This document shows positions 1,746 to 28,208 of a stretch of 30,146 bases of DNA, one piece after another. This DNA comes from Chloroflexota bacterium (GTDB lineage Bacteria; Chloroflexota; Anaerolineae; Ardenticatenales; Ardenticatenaceae). The stretch's first letter is position 1. Each line of letters starts with the position of its first letter. Made by a program: the position numbers and the translations under genes. The stretch lies in the NCBI GenBank assembly GCA_003520455.1, contig DOUV01000080.1:1-30146 (forward strand). Reading direction: 5' to 3'. Under the pieces are notes generated by a model. The model worked only from the letters and a program-made list of their open reading frames with translations. It did no database searches and was not told where the DNA came from.

Positions 1746-3194
1746 TTACATCAGTCGCACATCAAACACCATGGTTTTGATCTGCGTCATCCCCAGAATG
1801 GTGTACACCCCTCCGAGGCGACCAATGCCGCTCTTTTTCCCACTGTACCCGCCAAACGGCGTATGAGGTTGCCAGGAAGCACATACCTCGTTGACGTTTA
1901 CAATGCCCGTCTGAAGCTTTTCTGCATAGTATGTCCCGCGGGCAAGACTCTGCGTGAAAACCCCGGAGATCAACCCCCCGGAATTCTTGTTTGCTAATAA
2001 GATAGCCTCGTCGTCGTCCGCAAAAACCAAGATCGGCGCGACAGGGCCGAAGGTTTCCTCCATATTTAGCAGCATATCGGGTCGCACCCCCGTGACCACC
2101 GTAGGCAGATAGTAAAGAGCGCTCGGGAAGCCATCACTGCGGCTTCCGCCGACGAGCACATCCGCCCCCTTCTGTCGGGCGTCGGCAAGATGTTCATCCA
2201 CTTTGGCCGCTCCCGGCTCGTTGTTCAGCGGTCCCATCGTTGTTTGTTCATGCAGGGGATGGCCCAGACGAACCCGCTTGGCTTCGGATACCAATCCTTC
2301 TACGAATCGATCGTACACCTTCTCTTGGACTAGAATTCGCTCGACCGAGCTGCATTTCTGTCCCGCGTTGTCGAAACACCCCCAGGCAGTTCGGCGAATG
2401 GCATACTCCAAGTCGGCATCATCGAGTACGATTGTGGGTCCATTGCCTCCCAATTCTAACAAGACCGGTTTGGCGCCAGCCTTCCTGGCGACCTGGTCCC
2501 CGATTGCGAAACTACCAGTCAGTCCGATCGCGTCGATGCCGTCGTTGCTTGCGATTTCGTCGCCGACGATCGACCCTGGGCCAGTCACCACGTTCAAAGC
2601 CCCAGCTGGGAACCCAGCCTGCTCCACACACTCCATTAGCTGAATCGCACAGATCGGTGTAAAGCTGGAGGGTTTCCAGACAATGGTGTTTCCGCCAGCC
2701 AGTCCGGCCGACAGGTATTCGGTCGGAATCGACATCGGGAAGTTCCAAGGCGTGATGACCCCATACACCCCGTGCGGTTGGCGAATCGTGATTATTCGCT
2801 TATTCGGATCTGCCGAGGGGAGCACCGGGGTTTCTAAGCGTTTGATATCCTCGGCCGCGCCCCTGAACATCTCGGCGGCTTTGTCGACTTCGACCAACGC
2901 TTCGGTCCGATAGGGTTTGCCTTGCTCAAGCGAGATCCATCGTGCTAGCTGCTCTCTGCGCGATAGCATCGCGTCGGCGACCGCGTGCAATCGGGCCGCT
3001 CGCTCCCAGATAGGTATGTCGGCCATTACGGGTTTCGCCCGTCGCGCCGCTGCGATCGCTTGGTTCACGTCGGCTCGAGTCCCCTGTGGTACGATACCCA
3101 GCGGGTCGCCGGTTGCGGGGCTACGCACCTCATCGACTTCGCCGCTATCGCTGTCCACCCAGCAGCCGTCAACATACATCTGGAACTTCTGCAT
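1746..3194 (-). CDS. NAD(P)-dependent aldehyde dehydrogenase
   Basis: A full-length aldehyde dehydrogenase superfamily enzyme of 482 residues that oxidises an aldehyde to a carboxylate, most like the succinate-semialdehyde or generic medium-chain branch. Visible landmarks are the PWNFP motif (Asn151), the cofactor loop TGSFAIG (from 226), the general-base Glu247 in LELGGNGP, and the nucleophile Cys281 in NAGQKCSS. The usual EETFGPV motif follows in the C-terminal half. The ATG has a good AAGGAGAT ribosome binding site. It lies 70 bases downstream of the UGSC gene on the same strand and is the last gene of the minus-strand chain. It would finish the oxidation of aldehydes made by the SDR or Rieske enzymes. 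The substrate cannot be told from sequence. Confidence 0.93.
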   Translation of the reverse strand: MQKFQMYVDGCWVDSDSGEVDEVRSPATGDPLGIVPQGTRADVNQAIAAARRAKPVMADIPIWERAARLHAVADAMLSRREQLARWISLEQGKPYRTEALVEVDKAAEMFRGAAEDIKRLETPVLPSADPNKRIITIRQPHGVYGVITPWNFPMSIPTEYLSAGLAGGNTIVWKPSSFTPICAIQLMECVEQAGFPAGALNVVTGPGSIVGDEIASNDGIDAIGLTGSFAIGDQVARKAGAKPVLLELGGNGPTIVLDDADLEYAIRRTAWGCFDNAGQKCSSVERILVQEKVYDRFVEGLVSEAKRVRLGHPLHEQTTMGPLNNEPGAAKVDEHLADARQKGADVLVGGSRSDGFPSALYYLPTVVTGVRPDMLLNMEETFGPVAPILVFADDDEAILLANKNSGGLISGVFTQSLARGTYYAEKLQTGIVNVNEVCASWQPHTPFGGYSGKKSGIGRLGGVYTILGMTQIKTMVFDVRLM

Positions 3195-3264: not shown

Positions 3265-3804
3265 TCAAGCTCCGGAGATGGCTCGGGCGATTTCCGAGGC
3301 CACCGCTTGGGCTCGCTCCCGGAGCTGTGTCTGGTCAACGTTCGCGATCGGGTGGGGGATGACGACGTATGTGTAGTTAGGCACCCCCCTGGCTTGCGCC
3401 ATGGCTCGGGCACTGGAAATGAAGGCAGCAGTGATGATAGTTACCGTCGGAACCCATTGTTCCAGTTCGATCCCGTCGTGCACACTGCACGCGCTGCAGG
3501 AGCCTCAATCTCCGACACCGATGAGGACCAGGTCACACTGCTGCGCGATTTCCTGGAGAAGGGGAGCCGGTGCGGGCTGTGAATTGGCTTCTTTCTTCCA
3601 CCACCGAATGCCAGCCAAACTATGGCGCGCCGTAAGTTCCTCTGCGATGAACGCCAGCATGATTTCGGCGTTGTATTTGCCGTTGTCCAGCAGACCGAGT
3701 ACCTTGCCCTCCAACGTTGCCGGCCGCCTGGCTAGACCACGTTGTTGAACAAGTGGCATGCTCGTCGGGTCCAAAACTACCAGTTGTCTCTCGCCGCTAT
3801 CCAC
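3265..3804 (-). CDS. UGSC-family protein, probable selenoprotein (TGA read as selenocysteine at residue 100)
   Basis: Two open stretches in the same minus-strand frame are separated by one TGA at 3507-3505. Reading it as selenocysteine gives one 179-residue protein with the sequence GVGD-U-GSCSACSVHD, exactly the UGSC motif that names a known family of predicted (seleno)proteins. The regions on both sides fit the family: VVLDPT near the start, KVLGLLDNGKYNAE, CDLVLIGVGD before the U, and PTVTIITAAF, VVIPHPIANV after it. The start is a GTG at 3804 with AGGAGG eight bases upstream. Codons upstream of it in the same frame do not look like the family. Sec100, Cys103 and Cys106 form a redox-like cluster. 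The enzymatic role is not known to me. The real stop is also TGA. The alternative, a nonsense-mutated pseudogene, is less likely because the TGA hits the one position expected to hold Sec. Confidence 0.82.
3485..3499 (-). promoter_or_regulatory. Candidate bacterial SECIS-type stem-loop after the in-frame TGA
   Basis: On the minus strand, five bases after the in-frame TGA, CTGCA pairs with TGCAG around a five-base GCGCG loop. Bacterial SECIS elements are short hairpins just after the Sec codon with G or U in the apical loop, so position and loop are compatible. The stem is only five pairs and close to the codon, so this is tentative. Confidence 0.35.
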
Positions 3805-4151
3805 AGCTGGAACCTCCTCGTATGATATGTGATGGAGACGGTGCCAGCCCACCATCTCTTGACGAACTGAGAATCCCTGGCACGCTGGGGACTCGCCCAA
3901 GGAGGGCAGCGCGAGACCCCCTTTTGCACCCTGGCTGGTGACTTCTGTAAAAGCCTGCGCCCCTCAGCTCGATAAGCACTTCTCACCCTCATCTTGTTCG
4001 GACCCCAGCTGACTCTGGCAGCAGACCGAGGGCGTCCCCAGTGTGGGAGGAGTTCTGAATGACCGCGAGGCCGTTGCTCTCATCAGGCACCAAGGATTCC
4101 ACCTCCAATGGGCCAACGCCATCTATCCGGTTTTGAGAAGGAGCAGAGCTG
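3805..4151. other. Intergenic stretch between UGSC gene and IS110 remnant
   Basis: This stretch holds the upstream region of the UGSC gene and the 5' flank of the IS110 transposase remnant. The only clear signal is the AGGAGG ribosome binding site of the UGSC gene at its left edge. The open frames here are short, overlap on both strands and resemble no family. No convincing promoter was seen for the minus strand. Confidence 0.5.
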
Positions 4152-5427
4152 ATGGCTACTCCACTCCTGATGGGTGTTGGCCTCCACCGGACCACCAATC
4201 CGATCTGCAGGCAGGCCCAGTCCCCGAAGGTCGTGCCGCACTTCACCGTCAACCATAACCTGCCTGCGCCGAGGCCGTGGCTCAGCAGGCGGCCCACCTG
4301 CTGGGTGAGAGCGACTGCGATGGGCTGCAGGCGGTGGCCCACGCCACGGGCTGGTACTGGTTTCACTTCTTTCTGACCCTCCTGCACATTCCCTGCTTGC
4401 AACAATGGCTCGGTGGGGTCTCCGCCTTACACCTGAGGCTCAGGGCCAAGTTCAAAAGAGCTACGTCGACCCGGATCGTACTGACCTGATTGACGCCTTC
4501 GTGGTGGTGGATCGGCTGCGCTTCCAGCGTGACCTGGCCGCCTTCTGGCTTGACGAGACCTACCGACCGCTGTGGGTTCTCGCTATCGCTATCATGTCTC
4601 CACACCTTGGCTCGGAGAAGGCCTGCTGCTTGGCGATCCTGTGTCTCAAATTCAGCGAGTACAACCATCCTGACAAGCACCAGCGCCCCGTTGCCACCGT
4701 TTTTGGCGCCGCCAGTCCGGCCGTCGGCAAGAATTCGCCTCCATCGAGGAGGTCACCACCCTGCCCTTTGATGAGTTAGTCGCCTTCCTCGACAGCAAAG
4801 GCAAAGGTCGCTTTGCTGACCCGAGCGAGATGGCCCACAAACTGCCGCAGGCCGCCGACCGCTCGTGTCACCTCCCCGACGCTCTGCGGCTGTCCATCAA
4901 CCTCATCCTGCGATCGAGCCTGGAGCACATCCGCGCCTTGGAGCGTCAAGACCAACGGCTCAACGCCGCCCTTGCCGAACACATGGTCGCCATTCCACGG
5001 ACCTTAGACCCGATTCCCGGCATCGGCCCGCTCTTCGCCGCCGGTCTGATCGCCGAGATCGGGAATATCAACCGCTTCGACGCCAACGAAGGGAAAGTCG
5101 CCAAGTACGCCGAATCCAAGTGGCGCAAGACCCAATCGGCTGACTTCACCACTGACCAAACCCGCCTCACCTGCACTGGCAACCACTACTCGCGCTACTA
5201 CTCCTATAAAGCCGGCAACGCCACTCGGATGTGCGACGTTGAGTATGTGGCCTACTATGAGCGCAAATACCGTGAGGTCCGTGCCCATCAATAACAAACG
5301 CGCCATGGCGTTCACAGCTCACCAACTGGTTCGACTGGTGGTTCGGCTGCTGATACCAACCAGGCCTGCCAACCACGGAGGTAGCCCGGGACCTGCGCGC
5401 GTCACTTGGGTGCTCACGACTCGCTGA
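4152..5427 (+). pseudogene. IS110-family transposase remnant, several frameshifts
   Basis: Segments in different plus-strand frames together spell a long-type IS110 transposase. The order is GVGLHRTTN and PHFTVNHNLP (from 4152), then ATGWYWFHFF (around 4340), KSYVDPDRTDLIDAFVV and LRFQRDL (4450-4540), KACCLAILCLKFSEY (around 4640), FASIEEVTTLPFDELVAFL (around 4735), and PGIGPLFAAGLIAEIG, TQSADFT and YYERKYREVR (5010-5280), ending with NKRAMAFTAHQLVRLVVRLL (5293-5352). At least four frame changes are needed, near 4270, 4450, 4725 and 5290. The first catalytic Asp position (GIDLH in relatives) reads Gly. The element is inactive. IS110 elements have no long terminal repeats, and the exact ends were not found. 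It sits between two same-strand genes and so interrupts the minus-strand chain. Confidence 0.85.
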
Positions 5428-5570: not shown

Positions 5571-6644
5571 CTACGCGCACTCCCAGCAGAAACCGATGCC
5601 GGTCGTCACGGGTTGAGATTCATATCCATCCCAAGCAGGAATGTAGGCTGAGAAACCTCCCGCATCTCCCCCGGCGACGACCAGCAAGAAATCGTTCGGA
5701 TCCTTCGCGATCGTGACCATTTCCTCCTCGTCGCCTGGCTGAATGTCCCCCAGGATCTTCTTGACTCGTTTCAGATCAGCTAAGGGCCGGCGCGCTTTTT
5801 CAAAGAGGAATTCTTTGACCGCTGCCCTCGACCAACCCTCGCCCGCAACTGTGCCGGCATGCTGCGGGCAGATGATGACAACGCCGCCCCCCTTGCCGGT
5901 GAAGTTAGCGTTTCCCAACCCAACCATTGTGTCGGCAATCGTCAGCAAGATGTCCTCGGTTCGGGTGCCATAGTGATTCTCGATTTGTACTGGTGCCTGC
6001 CCGGCAAATACAGTAACCGTGCTGGCTTCTGCCGGGAAGCCAAGGTCCACGTGAAGCGGGGGCCAGGGGCTCGCATCCTCTTTCTCTGCAATGCAGAAGC
6101 TATACTTGCCAGGGTGGCCGAGCGTAGACTTCTCCAGAGCACCCGGGATGGCGCCTGCAATGTTCATGAGGATGAGGCGAATCGCCCGGCCGATCGTGGC
6201 GTTGGCTCGGGTGCCGTGACCAAGCACATTCGTCGCACTGTTGATCCCCAGTTCACGGCAGATGGGACCGTTTACGATCAGTAGTGGTGAGCAACCGGCT
6301 GTGCTCATCGCTGGACCGTACAAGCCGAAGCGCTCATCGGCCAGGGCCTCAACGGCAGCGATCACGACGGGCAGGTAGTCTGGTAAGCACCCCGCCATCA
6401 CAGCGTTGATTGCAATCTTCGCTGCGGTGGCGATCCCGCCCCGCGGAGGCAGAACCGCAATGATGTCATCGGGGGCCCGCCCGGCAGCTTCTAGCATCAC
6501 GTAAACGCGTTCCTCAGTCGGCGGCACAATGGGCAGTCCGTCCGACCAACCGCGTTCATAGAAGAATTCGATTGCTTCCCACGCGTTGGCCACAGGATAG
6601 CGCTGCGATGACAGGACAGTGGAGGACGCATTGATTTGTTCCAT
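5571..6644 (-). CDS. Conserved protein of unknown function, GWSDGLPIVPPTEERV family, C-terminal CxxC
   Basis: A soluble-looking 357-residue protein. I recognise its conserved text (GWSDGLPIVPPTEERV near residue 32, INAVMAGC near 78, NGPICRELGINS near 125, ASPWPPLHV near 190) as a conserved uncharacterised family that, from memory, is met near or fused with UGSC proteins. I cannot confirm that here. Conserved Cys occur in MAGC, TAGCSP and CPQHAG, and the protein ends with CWEC-A, a CxxC pair that could be redox-active. The ATG has AGGAG nine bases upstream. It ends at TAG, with no sign of a recoded TGA. The IS110 remnant separates it from the UGSC gene, which would otherwise be next downstream. 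A paired function is an inference from proximity and shared Cys chemistry. Confidence 0.75.
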   Translation of the reverse strand: MEQINASSTVLSSQRYPVANAWEAIEFFYERGWSDGLPIVPPTEERVYVMLEAAGRAPDDIIAVLPPRGGIATAAKIAINAVMAGCLPDYLPVVIAAVEALADERFGLYGPAMSTAGCSPLLIVNGPICRELGINSATNVLGHGTRANATIGRAIRLILMNIAGAIPGALEKSTLGHPGKYSFCIAEKEDASPWPPLHVDLGFPAEASTVTVFAGQAPVQIENHYGTRTEDILLTIADTMVGLGNANFTGKGGGVVIICPQHAGTVAGEGWSRAAVKEFLFEKARRPLADLKRVKKILGDIQPGDEEEMVTIAKDPNDFLLVVAGGDAGGFSAYIPAWDGYESQPVTTGIGFCWECA

Positions 6645-25444: not shown

Positions 25445-25554
25445 ACCGAAGGAGGTGATTCCTCGCAGAGTCTTTCTTCAGATTCCGTTCGGGTCCGTGC
25501 AGACCGCAAGTTGCTCTCGTGAACCATCCTGGCTTTCTCAAGGGGGAGGAACAA

Positions 25555-26577
25555 ATGTCCCACTACAAGAAGCGCCTCGCACTGCTGCTGTTATTGCTCA
25601 TAGGCTTCGTACTTGTTTCCTGCGGCCAGCCAGCGACACCGCAAACAGTCGAAAAGGTGGTGACGCAGGTTGTGGAAAAAGTTGTGACGCAGGTTGTGGA
25701 GAAGGAGGTAACTCAGGTCGTTGAGAAAGAGGTGACTACGATCGTCGAGGTCCAGGTAGAGCCGACGGCTGGGCCATTCCTCGAAAGAGCCCGCACCGAC
25801 GGTCTTCGCGTTGGCTTCGTTCAGGAGAAGCCATTCGGCTACGTCGACGATCAAGGCAACTGCACCGGCATCGACATCGAGGTCACCCGTGAGGCGGCCA
25901 AACGCCTGGGCATCAACGAGATTATCTGCGTCCACCTCGCCTGGGAGGGGCTGATCCCGGGGTTGCTCGCAAGCCGCATCGACGTGATCCCGGTCGGGAT
26001 GGCGATCAGGCCAGAGCGGTGCGAGGTCGTACAGTTCACCGATCCCTACCAGGCACAGGGCATTGCGGCCCTGGTCTTGAAAGAGAATCCCAAAAACATT
26101 CACGGCTTCCAGGACTTTGTAGACAATCCAAACCTCAAACTTGGCGCGAGTATCGGGGCCTCAGAGTTGACCATCGCCCGGGAGCAGTTCCATATCCCCG
26201 AGGACCGAGCAATCGGCTACTCGGAGCAGGTCCAGGTCATCGATGATATTGTCGCTGGCCGAATTGACGCCGGCATGTATACGGCCCCCTTTGTCAACCG
26301 CTACATTCAGGAGCAGGGGCCGGACAGTGCCCTCGAGCGCGCGACTCCATTCGACTCGCCTTCTTATTTCAATACTGGTCACGGCTTCCGCAAGGACGAC
26401 CCAGAGTTCGTGCAGCTTTGGAACAATACTCTCCTCGAGATGAAGCGCGACGGGACAATCGCGAAGATTGCTGGCGAGTTTGGGTATACCGATGCGGACT
26501 TGCTCGGTGAGGACGCGAAGGTTGAAAACTGCTGCAGCGGTGATAACTGGCAGAACCGGGCCTGTCTTCCCAAGTAG
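25555..26577 (+). CDS. Polar amino acid ABC transporter substrate-binding lipoprotein
   Basis: A 340-residue periplasmic-binding-type protein of solute-binding family 3. A lipoprotein signal (MSHYKKRLALLL, lipobox LVSC with Cys23) anchors it to the membrane. An eight-residue coiled repeat, VEK(V/E)VTQV, fills residues 32-68 as a stalk. The binding domain then opens with LRVGFVQEKPFGYVDDQG and has GIDIEVTREAAKRLG and GLIPGLLASRIDVIPVGMAI, the usual family 3 elements. The ATG at 25555 has a strong AAGGGGGAGGAA site; a GTG at 25519 lacks one. Two Cys near the end (ENCCSGDNW) are unusual. The ligand should be an amino acid or related small zwitterion, fitting the Rieske and creatinase-like enzymes. 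Confidence 0.93.
   Translation: MSHYKKRLALLLLLLIGFVLVSCGQPATPQTVEKVVTQVVEKVVTQVVEKEVTQVVEKEVTTIVEVQVEPTAGPFLERARTDGLRVGFVQEKPFGYVDDQGNCTGIDIEVTREAAKRLGINEIICVHLAWEGLIPGLLASRIDVIPVGMAIRPERCEVVQFTDPYQAQGIAALVLKENPKNIHGFQDFVDNPNLKLGASIGASELTIAREQFHIPEDRAIGYSEQVQVIDDIVAGRIDAGMYTAPFVNRYIQEQGPDSALERATPFDSPSYFNTGHGFRKDDPEFVQLWNNTLLEMKRDGTIAKIAGEFGYTDADLLGEDAKVENCCSGDNWQNRACLPK
25648..25743 (+). repeat. Four 24-bp coding repeats (octapeptide stalk)
   Basis: Four imperfect 24-base units encode VEKVVTQV, VEKVVTQV, VEKEVTQV and VEKEVTTI in the lipoprotein linker. The third-base differences show the units are not very recent copies. Such a stalk would hold the binding domain away from the membrane. Confidence 0.85.
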
Positions 26578-26614
26578 CCACCCTCCCTCTCCAGTTCAGG
26601 TCAGGTTGAAATGG

Positions 26615-26652
26615 CTGGGTTCGGGCACGCGCTGAGGCGTGTCTGAACCCAG
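26615..26652 (+). promoter_or_regulatory. Sixteen-pair intercistronic stem-loop after the binding-protein gene
   Basis: CTGGGTTCGGGCACGC pairs without interruption with GCGTGTCTGAACCCAG around the six-base loop GCTGAG, using two G-T pairs. It lies 38 bases after the binding-protein stop and 66 before the first permease. No T run follows. In many import operons a stem-loop at this point protects the binding-protein mRNA or partly stops transcription, so that more binding protein than permease is made. Confidence 0.75.
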
Positions 26653-26718
26653 GTGGAGTATCATCGTCTGAGCGACCGGCTGCAACCGGATCGCGAGACG
26701 CGAGAGAGTGATCGCTCG

Positions 26719-27360
26719 ATGGAACAGATTCGTGAGTTCGTCTCATTCCTCGCCGACGGGGCCGTCGTGACATTGGAGGTAACGCTCGCCACGGTGCCTT
26801 TGATGATCCTGATTGCCTTCATCGTCGGGCTGATACGGCTCTCTCGAAACCGGCTTCTCTACGGGATCGCCACCATCTACGTCGAGCTTATTCGCGGCAC
26901 ACCGCTCCTACTCCAGCTCTTTTACATCTTCTACGTGTTGCCGTTCGCCGGATTCGAGATCGAACCGTTCTCCGCGGCGGTCTTGGCACTTGGCCTAAAC
27001 TTCGGCGGCTACCTCTCTGAAGTCGTGCGCGCCAGCTTCCAGTCTGTTGCCCGCGGTCAGTGGGAGGCAGCGGTCGCGTTGAATATGTCCCCTGCGCTTA
27101 CCATGCGCAGGATCATCTTTCCTCAAGCAATACGCATCCTCCTACCGCCGCTGGGCAACAACATCATCGAGCTCTTCAAGGCAACCGCCATCGTCTCGTT
27201 AGTGTCTGTTCATGACTTGACCTACCAGGGGACTGTACTGACCACACGCACCTTTCAAACCGCTGTCATCTGGGTTCTCGTGAGCGGTTTCTATTTCTTG
27301 ATGAGCTATCCCTCCACCTTTGTGGTTCGATGGCTGGAACGGCGTACCGCCTTCCCTTGA
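26719..27360 (+). CDS. Polar amino acid ABC transporter permease (first)
   Basis: A 213-residue inner-membrane permease of the HisM/GlnP type with about five helices. It begins with the typical N-terminal FLADGAVVTLEVTLATVPLM, has IRGTPLLLQLFYIFY, and carries the EAA loop GQWEAAVALNMSPALTMRRIIFPQA that docks on the ATPase. I chose the ATG at 26719 (GAGAGAGTG upstream) because the longer GTG-started frame adds 22 charged residues and runs into the hairpin. It pairs with the second permease 53 bases on to form a heterodimeric pore. Confidence 0.92.
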   Translation: MEQIREFVSFLADGAVVTLEVTLATVPLMILIAFIVGLIRLSRNRLLYGIATIYVELIRGTPLLLQLFYIFYVLPFAGFEIEPFSAAVLALGLNFGGYLSEVVRASFQSVARGQWEAAVALNMSPALTMRRIIFPQAIRILLPPLGNNIIELFKATAIVSLVSVHDLTYQGTVLTTRTFQTAVIWVLVSGFYFLMSYPSTFVVRWLERRTAFP

Positions 27361-27413
27361 TCGTCGCAATCGTGGGATCGGAGGAGTCTGGATGGTAGGA
27401 GCATAGGCCATTC

Positions 27414-28208
27414 ATGGAAGTGATTGTCGAATTTATTCGACGCCATACGCCGCCCTTTAGTCTCGAAAAGTTTATCCAGTTCCTGCCCGAGCTGGCGAAG
27501 GGGGCGGTCGTCACCGTCCAGGTGACGCTTGCGGGCTTCGCGCTAGCGATGGTGCTCGGCCTCGTGATCGCTCTGGCCCGGATGTCGGACAAGGGCTGGC
27601 TGAGGAGGCCATTTACTGCCTTTCTCGAGATCATCCGGAATACACCCTTGCTTGTTCAACTCTACTTTGCGTTCTGGGTTTTGCCATCCGTCGGGATCAG
27701 GTTGCCGGCCTTCATCACGGGCGTGACGATTCTTGGGATCCATTACGGTGCCTACCTCTCCGAAGTATACCGGGCCGGGATCCAGGCAGTACCGCATAGC
27801 CAGGTCGAAGCCACCGTCGCCCTCAACATGACCCGAGCCCATGCCTTTCGTCGCATCATCCTGCCCCAAGCCTTCAGGACAATTATTCCGGCCATGGGGA
27901 ACTACCTCATCGGCATGTTCAAGGACTCAGCCTTCGTGTCTGCGATCTCGATTCAAGAAATCCTCGCTCGGACGCGGTACCGCGCCTCAACGACCTTCCG
28001 TTTCTTCGAGCTTTATACCGCGGCGGCACTGTTTTACTTCATGATCAGTTTCCCGACAGCAAGAGTCGTCAACGCCATCGAGCGCAACCTGAGACGAGAT
28101 TTGATCGAACCTCGCGTGGGAGCACCACGTGGACGTGTGCAAGGGATCGTCGCAAGCGCACGACGTTTCATCATGGGACGACCGGCGAAGGTGAAACGTG
28201 AAGTATGA
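27414..28208 (+). CDS. Polar amino acid ABC transporter permease (second)
   Basis: A 264-residue HisM/GlnP-type permease. The amphipathic start (MEVIVEFIRRHTPPFSLEKF) is followed by LAKGAVVTVQVTLAGFALAM, IRNTPLLVQLYFAFWVLP, the EAA loop SQVEATVALNMTRAHAFRRIILPQA, and MFKDSAFVSAISIQEIL. It runs about 40 residues longer than its partner because of a basic cytoplasmic tail (from about 228, rich in Arg and Lys). TAGGAG lies 12 bases before the ATG, a slightly long spacing. It completes the importer with the ATPase at 14585. Confidence 0.92.
   Translation: MEVIVEFIRRHTPPFSLEKFIQFLPELAKGAVVTVQVTLAGFALAMVLGLVIALARMSDKGWLRRPFTAFLEIIRNTPLLVQLYFAFWVLPSVGIRLPAFITGVTILGIHYGAYLSEVYRAGIQAVPHSQVEATVALNMTRAHAFRRIILPQAFRTIIPAMGNYLIGMFKDSAFVSAISIQEILARTRYRASTTFRFFELYTAAALFYFMISFPTARVVNAIERNLRRDLIEPRVGAPRGRVQGIVASARRFIMGRPAKVKREV

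Follow-up and report, generated by a model that had tools for sequence, protein, structure and literature searches.

Gene organization at the UGSC locus

Within the window, by which we mean the whole stretch of 30,146 nucleotides analyzed here, a gene with a single internal in-frame TGA lies on the minus strand between an aldehyde dehydrogenase gene and an IS110-type transposase remnant. The features on which the argument depends are as follows.

1746..3194, minus strand: aldehyde dehydrogenase gene (family match), downstream of the UGSC gene
3265..3804, minus strand: putative UGSC selenoprotein gene, 179 aa, with GTG start at 3804, stop TGA at 3267-3265 and matches to PF24696 and NF041046
3477..3491, minus strand: candidate SECIS upper stem-loop, CGUGCA-GUG-UGCACG, 6 bp, with loop GUG at 3485-3483, identified by comparison with relatives
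3505..3507, minus strand: in-frame TGA, the proposed Sec100, from the reading frame, the homologue alignment and TGA-bearing relatives
3813..3818, minus strand: ribosome-binding site AGGAGG, 8 nt upstream of the GTG
4830..5294, plus strand: IS110-type transposase ORF, 154 aa, with a PF02371 match, between the UGSC and partner genes and a remnant by its length
5571..6644, minus strand: partner gene, 357 aa, without a Pfam or NCBIfam match at E 0.001, whose profile is found near UGSC genes

Read from 3804 to 3265 on the minus strand, the frame runs from GTG through the internal TGA (3507-3505) to the terminal TGA (3267-3265), and the product carries U100, C103 and C106 when the internal TGA is taken as selenocysteine. 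The initial annotation had described one frame with a single TGA at the U of UGSC, a GTG start with AGGAGG eight bases upstream, 179 residues including Sec100, Cys103 and Cys106, and the use of TGA both as Sec codon and as stop. All of these elements are recovered from the minus-strand reading, the strand itself being absent from that annotation. A plus-strand reading of 3265-3804 was rejected, as it yields an unrelated frame.

The open frame alone is weak evidence for a gene, because 181 of the 1,534 stop-to-stop gaps in the window reach at least 79 codons. The split frame is beyond chance on other grounds, namely a PF24696 match that spans the TGA and a degenerate GVGD-UGA-GSCSA pattern that occurs once in the window and in none of 100 shuffles. 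It had also been expected that standard gene callers would report two broken genes; this can be seen for the first half, which exists as a separate database entry (P0002, 99 aa, representing two member sequences) identical to the N-terminal part of the window's protein.

By its profile matches, the gene is a member of the known and named UGSC family (NF041046/PF24696), as initially assigned. Both scores exceed the curated cut-offs: PF24696 is matched with E=2.8e-56 and 190.8 bits (cut-off 25), the alignment running through the TGA from residue 10 to 177 (profile positions 2-171 of 172), and NF041046 with 150.9 bits (cut-off 125). UGSC is a major environmental selenoprotein family, with 255 genes in Table 2 of PMC2398784, and its function is uncharacterized. 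The window's gene shares with the family its full length, the motif, the alternation of Sec and Cys and the stem-loop after the codon. Nothing essential differs; the window has the C106 and H109 of a GSCSACSVHDG subgroup and the adjoining IS remnant. Conserved positions in the homologue alignment are Sec/Cys at 100, Cys103, D91, E115, H151 and P152. The gene itself is thus an ordinary, mis-called member. Some genomes show expansion of the family, with eleven UGSC matches in G173 and eight in G158.

Putative selenocysteine and cysteine at codon 100 across relatives

A protein search returned 130 matches, and among the 120 listed, 35 were aligned; all 35 carry Cys at column 100. This protein-database sample is biased toward Cys forms because gene callers stop at TGA. 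We therefore turn to DNA, where the GVGD-UGA-GSCSA pattern, run over 84,980 species genomes, matched 40 genome contigs, all with TGA at the motif. These 40 stretches, from Actinobacteria, Chloroflexi/Dehalococcoidia, Latescibacterota, Gemmatimonadetes, Bacillota and one Gammaproteobacterium, all match a UGSC profile and encode UGSC protein on both sides of the TGA, continuing until a stop or the limit of the sequence (L003, L005, L010 and apparently L018 and L039 end early at one side). The alignment check proposed in the initial annotation hence gives Cys at column 100 in all aligned homologues and TGA as a common codon at that position in relatives, and the contrary outcome that it had named, homologues lacking a Sec/Cys alignment there, was not observed. 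That the window's TGA stems from a sequencing or assembly error, for which a single base would suffice, is extremely unlikely given the same TGA in 40 other contigs and the two member sequences behind P0002.

The prevalence of the TGA form was estimated in three taxonomic samples. In the phylum of G005 (the Chloroflexi genome holding locus L023; 301 genomes), 72 UGSC matches were found in 32 genomes, and 69 of the 72 contain exactly one TGA, its position being verified in 30 loci; one of the three matches without TGA is a fragment ending before the Sec site. In the phylum of G025 (L024, Solirubrobacterales; 198 genomes), 19 of 26 matches have one TGA, and several of the other seven are fragments. 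The order of G485 (200 genomes) presents a mixed picture, its 38 UGSC matches comprising 13 with one TGA, 14 with one TAG and 11 with neither.

A conserved stem-loop after the codon

The window's candidate SECIS has 6/6 pairs, 19 nt between UGA and loop, and an energy of -11.6 kcal/mol. The bSECIS criteria given in a figure legend of PMC13188914 comprise a 3-9 nt loop, an upper stem of 4-16 bp, a G in the first two loop positions, a spacing of 16-37 nt and an MFE of -7.5 or lower; the window's GUG loop, stem, spacing and energy all fall within these published limits. Folding energy gives no evidence for a SECIS, because 172 of 200 shuffles fold as well as the 45 nt from the window's UGA (z = 0.97). 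The fold suggested in the initial annotation as a check thus finds its support in comparison across relatives and in the Cys-form control, and none in energy.

The comparison covered 71 loci (68 distinct rows), excluding ten Sec rows whose motif is spelled differently as well as three odd hits. In these loci a six-pair stem (nt 17-22/26-31) with a three-base loop occupies a fixed place, with 95.8% of cells paired as against 15.7-50.5% when partners are slid. Stem covariation is 0.444 versus 0.152 in shuffled data, a value reached by none of 500 shuffles; two of five covariation measures do not rise above shuffles, these being pairs changed on both sides (209/500 as high) and further pair types (128/500). 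The covarying pairs 18-30 and 21-27 connect third codon positions. Since codons 106 and 109 pair with each other in the stem, the alternatives C106/H109 and A106/A109 are accompanied by compensating base changes. All six pairs form in 62 of the 71 loci, and a second register (nt 17-23/28-34, with a loop of four bases) completes the stem in another four, giving 66/71; five are incomplete in both. In a further set, 6/6 pairs were found in nine of nine TGA genes and ten of ten TAG genes.

At the same site, 12 Cys genes, not kinship-matched with the TGA genes, form 2 to 5 of the 6 pairs (one locus lacking the motif was dropped from this comparison). In either register, then, a complete stem is present in 85 of 90 TGA/TAG genes and in none of 12 Cys genes. 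Three of the 12 keep 6/7 pairs in the second register, so that stem loss is only partial in that Cys subgroup. Taken together, these comparisons support a stem-loop that would act as a SECIS element.

The same evidence bears on whether the window holds a pseudogene, in which a UGSC Cys codon mutated to TGA in this lineage and left a protein truncated at 99 aa. TGA is one base from TGC and TGT, and an IS remnant adjoins the gene. A decayed Cys gene would, however, sit poorly with the complete stem in the window, with the family residues A136, H151 and P152 retained after the TGA, and with the TGA form being the rule in the G005 phylum, and we regard it as very unlikely. Selenocysteine at UGA100, the reading put forward in the initial annotation, agrees with the wide distribution of TGA-form relatives and the covarying stem-loop, and on these comparative grounds it is highly likely.

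Decoding machinery and TAG-coded genes

No tRNA was found in the window itself. The capacity for decoding was assessed in the 36 genomes that hold the 40 TGA-bearing contigs. A tRNA-Sec of at least 55 bits is present in 30 of the 36; matches over the cut-off number 33 when weaker ones at 47-51 bits are included, and the 55-bit threshold was used because matches of 47-51 bits also occur in controls. In the G005 phylum, tRNA-Sec was found in 27 of 32 UGSC carriers and in 25 of 34 non-carriers (34 of 269 tested). Its presence in carriers and non-carriers alike indicates that Sec decoding is common there and is not tied to UGSC. SelB counts were dropped as evidence, since a match at E 0.001 appears in 36/36 genomes and in 14/14 controls, presumably through other elongation factors; matches over the cut-off occur in 25 of the 36 TGA-form genomes and 2 of the 14 controls.

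TAG stands at the Sec column in ten loci (L186, L187, L189-L194, L197 and L202), and the stem-loop has 6/6 pairs in all ten. Each of the ten genomes with TAG-coded UGSC has a tRNA-Sec-like gene with anticodon CUA, which ARAGORN labels Pyl. UAG-coded UGSC is already known from Geodermatophilaceae, as mentioned in PMC5330540 with reference to its ref. 56. The family is shared with those genes, and the TAG loci found here have the codon in the same column and retain the stem-loop; those genes combine TAG with a CUA tRNA-Sec, whereas the window has TGA (UCA). Genome G613 (L205, L227) contains two tRNA-Sec-like genes, UCA and CUA, on different contigs, which reflects either dual decoding or a mixed assembly.

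A recurrent partner gene and an IS110 remnant

The 357-aa protein encoded at 5571..6644 matches nothing in Pfam or NCBIfam at E 0.001, and 7,979 of 8,000 candidates scored are its relatives. Its predicted model (pLDDT 86.9) gave no convincing fold match against solved structures. Counting the window, 95 UGSC hits were scanned with the partner profile: 76 have the partner next to UGSC or fused with it, and 19, several of them on short stretches, lack it nearby; the 95 include repeats (for example, L016/L055, L023/L054 and L024/L108 are one gene each, and L072 is counted twice). UGSC and partner are fused within a single open frame in 13 of the 76 partnered hits (L025, L032, L070, L071, L073-L078, L122, L130 and L133) and lie within 2.5 kb of each other in the other 63. 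The two are on the same strand in all 76, with the partner upstream in 37 and downstream in 39, and gaps between hits in different frames measure 0-418 bp. The window is the exception at 1800 bp, and its gap contains the IS110-type transposase ORF.

Because the partner is so often adjacent or fused and always on the same strand, UGSC and partner very probably form one functional unit, which would have been split in the window by a mobile element. From this gene arrangement it can be expected with considerable confidence that the partner acts together with the UGSC protein, and the IS remnant may have upset expression of the pair in the window's organism.

A UGSC/Unknown_1 fusion is mentioned in PMC2398784. 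The joining of UGSC to a second conserved domain recurs here in 13 of 95 hits, whereas the window keeps the two as separate genes. The window's partner is probably the 'Unknown_1' domain.

Seven fused loci (L070, L071, L073, L074 and L076-L078) constitute a diverged subgroup with a U-S-T-C motif, partner-fused in 7/7, and their stem-loop has another sequence and register. An entry identical to the 357-aa partner (P0122) is found on 7 contigs, including one of 10.4 Mb, and the window's E2 protein on two contigs no longer than 30 kb; transfer or strain difference are possible causes of this differing spread. Among the 120 matches listed for that E2 protein, the named relatives (Planctomycetes, Anaerolineae, Chloroflexi, Ardenticatenaceae) reach only 45-47% identity.

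Apparent relationship to GrdB and PrdB

In the predicted model of the UGSC protein (pLDDT 91.9, pTM 0.84), strands and helices alternate five times, and Sec100 is placed at the end of the third strand, just before the next helix. A profile-profile comparison (hhalign) of 98 UGSC sequences, of which 88 were used, with 35 GrdB/PrdB-like Sec regions gave a score of 63.3 with probability 95.9 over 94 columns, aligning Sec on Sec. Against 10 GrdB alone the UGSC profile scored 57.4, and against 25 PrdB-like sequences alone 39.9; with 12 motif columns masked, the score against the combined set was 46.3. Controls remained far lower, at 17.2 for the reversed profile, at most 19.7 for 60 column permutations, 14.6 for SDR, 17.5 for E2, 14.8 for the partner and 22.7 for PF09338, the highest control. 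The aligned codon is TGA in 28 of the 35 GrdB/PrdB-like members and Cys in seven.

UGSC thus appears, by profile similarity, to share ancestry, as a distant cousin, with the Sec domain of the reductase subunits GrdB (glycine reductase selenoprotein B) and PrdB (D-proline reductase). Shared elements are Sec/Cys-xxC, then E and GIP following the helix, and, toward the end, a motif resembling HP. Unlike GrdB/PrdB (PF07355 plus the Sec region after it), UGSC is half as long and lacks a GRDB match, its partner is not PF09338, and many UGSC genomes have no GRDB match. The link to GrdB comes from the profile-profile comparison; a HMMER search of 36 UGSC proteins, run up to E 5, found GRDB (PF07355) in none of them. 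Stops are absent from nearly all of the Pfam GRDB matches listed, even though TGA occupies the Sec codon in most of the genes retrieved. The PF07355 model seems to end before Sec, leaving the Sec half of GrdB/PrdB outside the Pfam family, which may be why the kinship was overlooked. In the G005 phylum, GRDB matches are commoner among UGSC carriers (12/32) than in other genomes (49/269), and there may be a link between the two.

In the thioredoxin topology, the motif follows the first core strand. The predicted UGSC model departs from this in placing the motif after the third strand, and against a 17-sequence thioredoxin profile the UGSC profile scored 16.9, which is noise level and compares with 63.3 for GrdB/PrdB. 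That the protein is a thioredoxin-fold oxidoreductase and not a GrdB relative is accordingly unlikely, even though UxxC resembles the thioredoxin motif, a thioredoxin fold was suggested for UGSC in PMC2398784, and PMC13188914 names UGSC beside Trx-fold proteins. A statement of the UGSC-GrdB kinship was not found in the passages on UGSC consulted in open-access papers (PMC2398784, PMC13188914, PMC9312934, PMC9402790, PMC5029168, PMC7539508, PMC5330540 and PMC7435645), which is no proof of absence, subscription papers lying outside this coverage.

Proposed mechanism and function

A UGA-decoded UGSC selenoprotein that is kin to GrdB/PrdB and acts with its partner explains the observations best as a whole, and we hold this combined reading with good confidence. 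UGA100 would be read as Sec by SelB and tRNA-Sec, a capacity that relatives suggest for this organism, with the stem-loop 14-28 nt after the UGA guiding decoding and the second TGA terminating translation. The product would be a five-unit beta-alpha domain in which, according to the predicted model, Sec100 ends the third strand and is followed by Cys103 and Cys106. In the most likely mechanism, the Sec100 selenolate would attack a substrate bound or supplied by the partner (5571-6644), and Cys103/106 would resolve the selenium adduct, resulting in reductive cleavage of a small molecule. The roles of Sec100 as nucleophile and of Cys103 (and Cys106 in this subgroup) in resolution are proposed by analogy with GrdB, whose motif is given as UxxCxxC in PMC13188914.

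By the same analogy, UGSC is a probable selenolate-dependent reductase; for GrdB-like chemistry in particular, the prospect is a little short of even. UGSC itself is unlikely to be a glycine or proline reductase, because its partner is not PF09338 (GrdE/PrdA) and, of the UGSC genomes tested, 4 of 10 in one set and 0 of 22 in another have GRDB. Neighbors in the first 40 loci are mixed, comprising amidohydrolases, SDRs, PLP enzymes and transporters (85 of 136 ORFs scanned), and name no substrate. An aldehyde dehydrogenase homologue like that downstream of the window's gene was found near UGSC in none of 93 other loci.

It is also conceivable that UGSC is related to GrdB by descent and is a plain redox, metal- or metalloid-handling protein that cleaves no substrate. 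This would accord with the mixed neighborhoods, with the lack of a known substrate and with a partner unlike GrdE, which showed no detectable similarity to a 16-sequence PF09338 profile (score 15.3). The frequency of a single partner and the repeated fusions suggest instead a two-component enzyme, and we place the plain redox or metal-handling role somewhat below an even chance, while counting it a serious possibility.

Returning to the reductase reading, a family recorded as "function unknown" gains a testable hypothesis, that of a two-component reductase, from the tie to GrdB/PrdB together with the frequent partner; the tie also speaks against the thioredoxin-fold guess. The wider interest lies in the family's GrdB kinship and its partner, not in the single gene. 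We would propose only tentatively, considering it rather doubtful, that UGSC and partner represent an unrecognized class of two-component selenolate reductases, sister to glycine/proline reductase with a different substrate-handling subunit, which would occur in several phyla, some of the genomes having no GrdB match, reach up to 11 matches per genome and encode a single catalytic site by UGA, UAG or Cys codons.

Other features of the window

A group II intron match (RF00029) lies at 401-491 on the plus strand, scoring 45.5 bits where the gathering score is 40. Between 13347 and 25444 on the plus strand, eight ORFs resemble short-chain dehydrogenases, as judged by eye, and are accompanied by a Rieske oxygenase, ABC transporter genes (14582, 25519-28208) and an FG-GAP/ASPIC protein.
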